Positions 17,336-44,645 of a stretch of 64,000 nucleotides of DNA are shown here, in pieces. Origin of the DNA: an uncultured Sphingomonadaceae bacterium (GTDB lineage Bacteria > Pseudomonadota > Alphaproteobacteria > Sphingomonadales > Sphingomonadaceae); assembly GCA_947493215.1 (NCBI GenBank), contig CANLQE010000001.1, positions 2,295,404 to 2,359,403 on the forward strand, read 5' to 3'. The notes under the pieces are model-generated. The model did no database searches, was not told where the DNA came from, and saw only the letters and a program-made list of their open reading frames with translations. Both the position numbers and the translations under genes were made by a program. Positions within the stretch are counted from its first letter, which is position 1; each line of letters begins with the position of its first letter.

Positions 17336-17413
17336 GTGCTCCGCACTTGATGCGGAGCCTAGGATGGCTGTCACGCTCGTCTACCCTGGGTTCCGCATCA
17401 AGTGCGGAGCACG
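17336..17413. repeat. Large inverted repeat (arms 24/25 bases)
   Basis: Left arm 17336-17359 and right arm 17390-17413 pair at 23 of 24 positions. Each arm itself contains the smaller palindrome CTCCGCACTTGATGCGGAG (or a one-base variant), so the element can fold either as one long hairpin or as two small ones. It fills the ppdK-glyS spacer. Similar dispersed palindromes occur in sphingomonad genomes (from memory). Confidence 0.8.
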
Positions 17414-17484: not shown

Positions 17485-19878
17485 TCATCCCTCAATCTTG
17501 GAAAAATCAGCAACTTGATGCACCGCCGCGCGAAAGCGGGCCAGCAGAGCAAGCCGTGCCTCTCGTTTCTCTGCGTCGCTGTCATTCACCGTCACATCCT
17601 CGAAAAACTGGTCAATCGGCGCGCGCAAATTGGCTAGTGCGGTCATGGCTTTTTCAAATTCTTCCGCTTCAATGGCAGCGGTCACATCAGGCTGCGCTGC
17701 ATCGAGCGCGTCGATAAGCGCCTTTTCGGCTTTTTCGGGCGTGTAGGAAAGGCCTTTGTTCCCCTGCGTAGGCAGGGGGCCATCTCCAGAGGGCGCGTCT
17801 GAAGTGTCATGCGGGAGATGGGCACCTGCCTGCGCAGGTGCACTGCTGTCCTTCATCTCTTTCTTCAGGATGTTCGATGCGCGCTTGTAACCGGCGAGCA
17901 GGTTTTCACCGTCCGGTGTCTCGACAAATGCCTGCAAGGCCTTCACCCGGGCGAGCACACGAACCAGATCATCTTCTCCGCCGAGGGCGAATACAGCATC
18001 GATCAGGTCGTGACGGACGCCCGCTTCGCGTTGCTGGACTTTGAGACGGTCGGCGAAGAAACCTAGTATCTGATCTGCAAGTTTGAGTGGGTCAGCGGCC
18101 ATTCCGACGGCCAATTCAATAATCTCATGGCCCTTTGGGGGCAATTTGAGCCTGGTTGTTAGTGAACTCAAAGCTTCTGTTCCGGTATTTTTGCCCTTCG
18201 GGGCTACAAGATCAACAATAATCCTAAAAGATACCGGATCTTCAAACGATTTACTTTCTGTGAAAGCCTTGAATTCGGGGCTAATGTCACTGACACGTTG
18301 AACAAAAACATCCATATATATGTTAAACGCTTGCTCAATTGCGGCCGTGATACTGACCCTTAGATTCAGTTCCTCAATCAATCTGATGACTGCAATTGCA
18401 GCTCTTCTAAGAGCGTAAGGATCTTTTGATCCAGTTGGCATTTGCTCGATAGCAAAGAAACCGACCAACGTATCCAGCTTATCCGCCAAACTCACCGCCA
18501 CCGTCACCGGATCGGTCGGCACTTGATCGCCCTGCCCTACTGGCTTGTAATGGTCGCGGATCGCGTTCGCGACGGCCTCTGACTTGCCTTGTTTCTCTGC
18601 ATAATAGCCGCCCATCAGACCTTGCAGGTCGGGGAACTCGCCGACCATTTCGGTGACGAGATCGGCTTTGCAGAGACGTGCGGCCTCAGACACTTCACCA
18701 TGAAGTGTATCGCCGGGGCTGGACTGGTAAAAACCATTCCCTTCTAAAGAAACCAACCACTCGGCCAACTTGGCCACACGCTCTACCTTGTCGGCAACCG
18801 TGCCCAGTTTTTCATGGAACACAATGTTGCTCAATTTCTTGGCATGATCTTCCAACGGTGTCTTCTGGTCCAATTCCCAGAAGAATTTGGCGTCGGACAG
18901 CCTTGCCGCCAATACTTTTTCATTGCCCGCGACAATTGCCTTGCCGCCATCGCTGGCGTCAATATTGGCGGTGCAGATGAAATTTGGGGCCAGTTTACCG
19001 GATTTATCGCGGCAAATGAAGTATTTTTGGTTCACCCGGGCGGTGAGCTGAATCACCTCTTCCGGTACATCCAGAAAGGCCGGATCAAATTCGCCGAGCA
19101 AGGGCACAGGCCATTCGGTCAGGCCGGCATTTTCGATCACCAGACCTTCATCTGCCACCAGTTCCAGCCCGCCGCCTGATGCCGCCTTGGCTGCGCCATC
19201 GCGCACAATTGCTTCGCGTTCGGCCTGATCGACCAGAACATGGCAAGCGCGCAGTTTTTCCGCATAATCACCGGCATTGCCGATCGTTACCACTCCGTCA
19301 TGGTGGAAGCGATGGCCGACGGTTTCATAACCTGACGCCACGCCGTCAATTTCGCAGGCAACCAGATTATCGCCCAATATCGCCACAATCCCCGACAACG
19401 GCCGCACCCAGCGCAGGCTTTCGGTCGAGAGGCTCGCATCGCCCCAACGCATGGATTTCGGCCATGGGAAGGCTTTGATGATCGCCGGGATCGCTTCGGA
19501 CAGCACATCGCTCGTTGCGCGGCCCGGCTTGTTGATAACGGCGAATAGGGTTGGACGCCCTTTTACATCGCGCACTTCCAGCTGATCGCGGGTTACGCCA
19601 TTTTTGCGGCAGAAACCGTCAACCGCCTGATCAGGCGCGCCTTCCGGTGGCCCCTTGGCTTCTTCGCTCACCGCTTCGGTCTGATCCGGCAGATCCTTTG
19701 CAATCAGCGCAAGCCGCCTTGGCGTCGAGAAAACGATAATATCCGCAGCTTTCAGGCCAGCGTCGCTCAATTGCGCGACGAACAAGCGTTCGAGATCCGC
19801 ACGCGCCTTTGCCTGCATGCGGGCAGGAATTTCTTCGGAGAGCAGTTCGAGCAGGAAATTAGCCATTATGCCGCCCAC
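17485..19878 (-). CDS. glyS: Glycyl-tRNA synthetase beta subunit
   Basis: Beta subunit of the alpha2beta2 glycyl-tRNA synthetase; binds the tRNA and supports charging. 797 residues, above the ~690-700 usual length. Recognised by [40 protein letters not shown]-like [19 protein letters not shown] and the C-terminal anticodon-binding [19 protein letters not shown]. About residues 675-710 are an extra segment ([20 protein letters not shown] and following) encoded by a palindromic element (17761-17840) inserted in frame, between two helices before the C-terminal domain. The first residues MGGI come from an upstream ATG at 19878; MANFLLELL (19866) may be the real start, which overlaps the glyQ stop. 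Confidence 0.96.
17761..17840. repeat. Palindromic element inside glyS (translated)
   Basis: 27-base arms (17761-17787 and 17814-17840) pair at 23 of 27 positions around a 26-base loop. The outer part is itself palindromic: CCTGCGTAGGCAGG in one arm and CCTGCCTGCGCAGG in the other. It lies wholly inside the glyS frame and adds roughly 27-34 residues without a stop or frameshift, like Rickettsia palindromic elements. Confidence 0.85.
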
Positions 19879-44610: not shown

Positions 44611-44645
44611 TTAACGCCCGCTTTCACGCCCAAAGCGGGCGTTAA
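44611..44645. repeat. Hairpin repeat, copy E (perfect)
   Basis: TTAACGCCCGCTTT and AAAGCGGGCGTTAA pair perfectly over 14 positions around the loop CACGCCC. Compared with copy D both stem sides differ in the same pairs (T-A to C-G), so pairing is maintained. Confidence 0.85.

Follow-up and report, generated by a model that had tools for sequence, protein, structure and literature searches.

A palindromic repeat read in frame in glyS of a Sphingomonadaceae bacterium, and repeat-derived inserts at the same GlyS loops in its relatives

Results

A palindrome lies in frame within glyS

The stretch of DNA analysed here (the window) comprises 64,000 nucleotides of the genome of an uncultured member of the Sphingomonadaceae. 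Its glyS region contains the following features.

17485–19878, minus strand: glyS, glycine–tRNA ligase beta subunit, 797 aa, uninterrupted (ORF list, TIGR00211, Pfam PF02092 and PF05746)
17758–17843, minus strand: palindromic element, family A, in frame, filling linker S4 (inverted repeat, dispersed copies in relatives, linker comparison)
17758–17787: left arm of the element, holding CCTGCGTAGGCAGG at 17763–17776 (inverted-repeat scan)
17814–17843: right arm of the element, holding CCTGCCTGCGCAGG at 17825–17838 (inverted-repeat scan)
17336–17412: second palindromic element, family E, intergenic between glyS and ppdK (28-nt arms, 93% complementary)
18709–18747, minus strand: loop S3, without a palindrome in the window, the site of most inserts across the family (coordinates by hand from the structural model; relatives' inserts)
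18982–19011, minus strand: loop S2, empty in the window and invaded in some relatives (relatives' inserts)

The glyS product scored 732 bits against the TIGR00211 glyS profile, for which the cut-off is 300. The two 30-nt arms of the family A palindrome are 83% complementary. A preliminary description of this DNA had reported an 80-base palindrome at 17761–17840 with 23 of 27 positions paired; this is the same object as the repeat listed here, and both of the sub-palindromes that it named are present, one in each arm. Read-through of the palindrome in the glyS frame was likewise borne out, the 797-residue ORF having no internal stop. The 85 bases from 17761 to 17845 can be read without a stop in three frames out of six, including the one that is used, and each of the other three contains a stop codon. 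Folding of the 91 bases from 17755 to 17845 as RNA gave −45.6 kcal/mol for the coding strand and −56.2 kcal/mol for the other strand.

Three inverted repeats in the window scored at least 13: the family A element (16), the element at 17336–17412 (22) and a repeat at 44611–44645 (14). The family A inverted repeat goes beyond chance: no repeat scoring 16 or more occurred in 24 first-order resampled windows (best 15), and repeats scoring at least 13 averaged 0.42 per resampled window. The short, strong repeat at 44611–44645 has the look of a terminator. The family E element starts 72 bases past the glyS stop codon. This family had matches in 28 of the 32 genus genomes, and the own genome had nine when both strands were counted; it is intergenic in the window and lies inside glyS in several relatives. 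Neither element ends in the CGTC tag as defined in the available text of PMC3733652. A search of the window against Rfam returned two tRNAs and the small SRP RNA and nothing else, so that the element is covered by no known RNA family.

The insert lies within the anticodon-binding domain of GlyS

Linker S4 comprises 43 residues in the window GlyS compared with mostly 17 (14–22) in near relatives in which it is empty, indicating a net gain of about 26 residues. The preliminary description had estimated that the palindrome added 27–34 residues to a GlyS about 100 residues longer than typical. A stretch separate from the palindrome, residues ~521–594, explains a large part of the length left over; here about 74 mostly helical residues align with about five of the E. 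coli chain.

The predicted GlyS structure had a mean pLDDT of 89.3 and a pTM of 0.82 (45 sequences), and its nearest solved structures were bacterial and plastid glycyl-tRNA synthetases. The sole stretch with pLDDT below 50 was residues 674–696, which fall within the element peptide (674–702, numbered from MANF), and this peptide is modelled between helices 650–670 and 711–732. On the basis of this model we propose that the insertion site is a tolerant, disordered loop of GlyS. Pfam DALR_1 spans residues 657–783 and encloses the loop, which places it inside the anticodon-binding domain and not, as had been suggested, between domains.

Family A is dispersed in related genomes

The own genome comprises 3.69 Mb in 11 contigs, and similarity searches and searches with the exact core found no second family A copy in it. 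The core with up to two mismatches matched 86 places there (52 forward, 34 reverse) and a reversed control matched 52 (27 forward, 25 reverse). Seven own-genome loci that were inspected (L002, L004, L006, L007, L010, L041 and L042) contained no element, and plasmid records gave no element match.

The family A search covered 60 genomes including the own one. At E ≤0.01, matches were found in at least 30 of the 60: besides the own genome, they came from 27 of the 31 genus relatives and from two other genomes, with seven of the 27 relatives having a single weak match each (E 1e-4 to 5e-3), all among the matches listed. At E <1e-5, again among the matches listed, at least 20 of the 31 relatives were represented and one genome had as many as 23 matches, a number in which a palindrome may be counted on both strands. 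A few of these relatives had their best copy in glyS itself; the glyS copy was among the matches in G015, G017, G027, G028 and G031. A dispersed genomic repeat had been suggested, with the lack of a second copy anywhere in the genome named beforehand as the result that would refute it. That lack is literally what we observed in the own genome, whereas dispersal was evident in the relatives, and the comparison with these relatives explains the lone copy.

A 110-base stretch containing the element is 95% identical to G027 and 90% identical to G031, compared with 86% for conserved glyS codons. Together with the absence of any other detected copy in the own genome, this would fit arrival of the glyS copy by recombination with an element-rich relative instead of insertion in the window's lineage. 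However, the window GlyS groups with the same relatives on a codon tree (weak resolution), and loss of other copies accounts for the same facts. We regard recombination or gene conversion of glyS segments between species as a genuine possibility, if an unlikely one; the lone copy would reflect either loss of the family elsewhere in this genome or gain of the glyS segment by recombination.

Linker S4 is filled by dissimilar repeats within the genus

GlyS was matched in 30 of the 32 genus genomes. Four of the 32 fell outside the S4 count (two with no match, one with a partial match and one with an unreadable linker). In the other 28, with linkers read by eye, S4 was filled in 19 and empty in nine, so that GlyS proteins without the segment do occur in relatives, as the preliminary description had anticipated for a mobile element. 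About six dissimilar repeat families were represented: fillings of the A, D, E, F and CGTC types fell into five separate clusters, and a CCCCTCCCC-type filling in G022 was recognized as a sixth by reading. Several linkers were composite, consisting of E and A in G027 and G031, of E, A and F in G025, and of D and E in G010 and G007, which indicates repeated insertion into the same loop. Families A, E, D and F all occur within a single clade of nine genomes that has full support on the GlyS codon tree, and in another supported grouping, a pair, the linker is CGTC-filled in G021 and empty in G009; many other forks were weak. A GlyS protein tree calculated with a mixture model was badly resolved with odd long branches, and the codon tree was used in its place.

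Inserts of different families begin at different points of the short, non-conserved linker, and inspection by eye revealed neither a common target sequence at S4 nor a peptide conserved across the insert families. No target-site duplication or excision footprint was identified in linkers read in this way.

Two further observations concern this linker. In G022 (L174, a single contig), the CCCCTCCCC-type insert adds a stop codon, and a different frame encodes the anticodon-binding end, as either a natural split or a sequencing error would produce. In a sub-group of GlyS proteins (e.g. L246, L254 and L310) the linker is a conserved, non-palindromic segment of about 49 residues (..TGEEDPLALVDDPDMKAVI..), possibly an old insert turned functional.

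Four GlyS loops carry repeats across the family

In a first set of 80 GlyS loci from named or binned organisms, a biased sample picked by peptide pattern and score, many different repeat-derived peptides were found at the same linker. Fixed anchors were then used to cut out S4 from 300 loci; six loci lacked the first anchor and 12 the second, those dropped including the insert-bearing L094 and L174, and the remainder gave 275 distinct GlyS sequences. On the corresponding ORFs, repeats scoring at least 14 numbered 37 in the linker, eight upstream of the recognized start and 53 elsewhere, with a further 30 on ORFs whose start fell outside the locus. Most of the latter two groups sit at three more loops.

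Loop S1: anchors GHRF..ITIGNA
Loop S2: anchors QKYFVC..FVCTAN
Loop S3: anchors LARWLVEEGIV..LADLAEQAARL

S2 and S3 are loops 286–290 and 373–385, respectively, of the predicted model. Of the 275 sequences, automatic detection located S3 in 178, S2 in 222 and S1 in 55. Repeats scoring 12 or more were present in at least 67 of these at S3, at least eight at S2 and at least three at S1, as well as in 37 of 275 at S4; per-loop counts are lower bounds because loops were missed by detection. At least one loop repeat was present in at least 92 of the 275 proteins, and two or more in at least 23. At least four strong glyS repeats lie off the four loops (L226, L098, L178 and L317), and several counted glyS repeats may be upstream of the start.

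The order was sampled by drawing 197 genomes evenly, with GlyS found in 195 and 188 counted. Repeats scoring at least 14 in the last ~500 GlyS residues were present in 48 of 134 members of the window's family compared with 0 of 54 from other families; for the genus the figure was 17 of 28. None of the 76 repeats so counted had its midpoint in the ~200 residues that precede S4. After removal of six composites, a tightened rule grouped 109 inserts into 19 clusters; 10 are represented at S4 and 13 at S3. A looser linkage of 115 inserts with composites included gave eight clusters (four at S4, six at S3) and was set aside, as the composites had fused families. Sequence resembling the insert was found outside glyS for 103 of 114 GlyS-loop inserts scoring at least 12 (E 1e-4, among the loci examined, some genomes being represented twice). 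What the preliminary description presented as a single case is thus a pattern, in which dissimilar repeats occur again and again at the linker and at three more loops throughout the family.

Strong repeats are not general to genes, the neighbours ppdK and glyQ being almost free of them. All three genes were located by homology within one set of loci. There were 118 repeats scoring at least 14 in 274 glyS genes (576 kb), affecting 92 genes, whereas ppdK had three in 236 genes (370 kb) and glyQ one in 155 (125 kb). The four control-gene repeats span about 140–240 bases and appear by eye to be ordinary conserved sequence. An earlier count over flanking ORFs (29 in glyS, 15 in other ORFs and 52 outside) was discarded, as genes had been picked by length and glyS was partly lost to antisense ORFs.

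In-frame inserts in other genes

The 76 family A and E copies examined in genus genomes include doubled places and were reduced by hand to about 67 distinct copies outside glyS; these are best matches and a non-random sample. Two of the ~67 were confirmed as in-frame palindromic inserts inside a recognized gene, the gene in each case confirmed by family search: the NAD-dependent DNA ligase LigA (L021, 967–3087) and the error-prone DNA polymerase DnaE2 (L383, 2–3076). ORFs crossing A or E copies numbered 28, of which six were glyS; ten non-glyS ORFs were read, and the 20 that remained after glyS, LigA and DnaE2 were rejected as short, antisense or upstream by their look. By eye, the L021 ligase and the L383 polymerase also contain further repeat-like segments.

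A survey of G031 covered 800 kb in blocks picked without glyS, with 717 gene calls. It contained 34 repeats scoring at least 14, comprising 27 outside genes, four at gene edges and three inside genes. The three lie in two genes and in no other of the 717.

IleS of G031 (L445, 4694–7762): two in-frame palindromic inserts
PheT of G031 (L461, 2159–4630): one in-frame palindromic insert

Three more class-I synthetase-like genes in these blocks, recognized by motif, had no repeat. If the blocks hold about 5–10 synthetase genes, a hand estimate puts the chance that both hit genes are synthetases at the order of 1e-4, and tolerance alone does not obviously account for synthetases being the only genes hit among 717. 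A second survey, of a 400-kb block of G187 picked to include glyS (305 gene calls, from a home-made codon model), contained seven in-gene repeats, of which the one in glyS alone was judged by eye to be an insertion; three of the other six were set aside as upstream sequence misread as a start and three as native coding sequence.

In IleS, six of 29 genomes of the family had a score of at least 14; the loop following CTPQWF.PMD was affected in five and that following HPMAD in one, and these two loops are the ones hit in G031. No PheT repeat reached 14 in the 28 of 29 genomes that were matched. The window's own IleS (L484) and PheT (L514) had no repeat at these loops. By eye, several more IleS proteins have repeat-like peptides, and in the PheT of G242 (L515) the loop that is hit in G031 holds a repeat-like segment of a different kind.

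The use of few loops by many families, and the prominence of synthetase genes in the survey, could reflect a DNA target preference, i.e. an enzyme that recognizes glyS sites and mobilizes the repeats, instead of a selection filter. However, insert starts vary by family, dissimilar families would need to share the preference, and the sites fall in loops of the predicted model, as selection alone would predict. We therefore consider target preference improbable.

Discussion

The best-known palindromes in protein-coding sequence are those of Rickettsia, and in-frame palindromic elements also occur in Wolbachia. The Rickettsia palindromic elements (RPE) were reportedly described by Ogata et al. 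in 2000. The preliminary description had drawn a parallel with RPE, reading the glyS palindrome as an insertion in frame within an essential gene, and this reading is supported by the copies and the empty alleles in relatives. In common with RPE, which measure about 70–190 bp in the table of PMC3767692, these repeats are palindromic and occur in frame at solvent-exposed positions of housekeeping genes. According to the available part of the same paper, PheT and IleS, the two genes hit in G031, are among 18 Rickettsia genes with RPE-4, RPE-6 or RPE-7, and in R. japonica both carry RPE-7. There are also differences from RPE: intragenic copies appear to be a small minority here (two of ~67 sampled, as above), several dissimilar families alternate at one site, and the window element ends in GTGCACC.. 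and not in the ATGAC/CGTC type. By analogy, the window element can be regarded as Rickettsia-like in behaviour.

The recurrence of synthetase genes in two distant orders (here and in the Rickettsia table of PMC3767692) raises the question of domestication, whereby an mRNA hairpin or the extra peptide would regulate GlyRS and be maintained by selection; the conserved 49-residue sub-group linker may be a functional descendant of such an insert. Against this, the inserted sequences are dissimilar and turn over, one genus alone has nine empty alleles among 28, and no peptide visible by eye is conserved across families, which makes domestication quite improbable. The available text of PMC3767692 left undecided whether different elements at one site reflect a hotspot or one old, diverged insertion, and preferred the latter for RPE-4, RPE-6 and RPE-7. 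For GlyS, a single ancient insertion inherited by all and diverged into seemingly different repeats would explain the sharing of sites by all species, and perhaps the sub-group linker as an old insert, but it is very improbable indeed given that S4 inserts fall in separate clusters even within one genus, that most inserts resemble sequence outside glyS, that short empty and filled linkers alternate among near relatives and that the composites represent successive insertions. Sphingomonad GlyS strongly supports repeated insertion in this group, as the same loops hold dissimilar repeats with empty and filled alleles among near relatives.

The inserts also resemble elements known from other bacteria. 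The CGTC-tagged REPs of Alphaproteobacteria form head-to-head palindrome dimers in sphingomonads, according to the available text of Di Nocera et al. (2013; PMC3733652). Among the genes in which that text records REP units are ‘tRNA synthetases’ of E. lithoralis and S. alaskensis (as abbreviated there) and, in various bacteria, those for DnaE2, DNA ligase and TruB. It describes one same-site case, in recB of two Xanthomonas, other genes of the same category being hit at different sites. In-frame palindromic elements and intragenic REPs are thus already known, with unnamed tRNA synthetases among the genes affected; the word ‘glycyl’ is absent from the main text of that paper. Several GlyS-loop inserts end in CGTC..GACG in the manner of these REPs, whereas the window element and family E have no CGTC end. 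MITEs such as ERIC/RU and Correia are likewise small, non-autonomous repeats with open frames that sometimes lie inside genes, but the available text of PMC2229807 describes no recurrent single-gene magnet, and the target-site duplications that it lists for several families have no counterpart identified here. In the open-licence PMC literature we found no report of palindromic repeats in sphingomonad glyS, and no precedent in the open-licence literature for one essential gene in which four loops are refilled repeatedly and independently by many families across a bacterial family.

Very probably, the segment in the window glyS is a dispersed, non-autonomous palindromic repeat that was inserted in frame into a tolerant GlyS loop. 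Its structure would be REP/MITE-like, with two inward-facing palindromes in about 80–90 bp. According to this explanation, many palindrome families insert all over sphingomonad genomes, and selection would purge nearly every copy that lands in a gene. The survivors would be copies between genes and, at a small number of exposed loops in large enzymes, copies that keep the frame and bring no stop; the latter would be retained above all in the four GlyS loops and also in IleS and PheT. Transposition as the route of insertion is suggested by the presence/absence patterns, and selective filtering would be the cause of the site restriction. The insert peptide is probably translated, and its effect would be nearly neutral. 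A loop, once enlarged, might accept further inserts and so give rise to composites. Within an essential gene a copy could be removed by in-frame deletion only and thus could outlive its family; the glyS copy, the sole one found in its genome, may be such a relic.

No transposase of the element was identified. The Y1-type transposase PF01797 was present in 13 of the 32 genus genomes, with one match in the own genome (contig C6), and was not detected in the element-rich G031, G027, G015 and G003. With PF01797 not detected in several element-rich genomes, a resident RAYT, the tyrosine transposase associated with GTAG REPs, is unlikely to explain family A.

A broader suggestion, which is tentative and which we are inclined to doubt, is that, in Alphaproteobacteria as distant as the Sphingomonadales and Rickettsiales, fixed loops of glyS, ileS and pheT are where palindromic selfish DNA preferentially finds long-term refuge. 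Something more than passive tolerance would then be at work, for example target choice or a selective effect on translation, and these loops would keep relics of repeat families otherwise extinct.

For the biology of the sphingomonads, glyS is a record of passing selfish DNA, and it offers a natural replicated experiment in the formation of new protein segments from such DNA. The GlyS system is informative about the loops that can accommodate tens of additional residues and about the time for which a repeat outlives its family, and the window's family includes many sequenced and cultured species. It also carries a warning for annotation: many of the length differences in GlyS, and some of those in IleS and PheT, are repeats in these bacteria.
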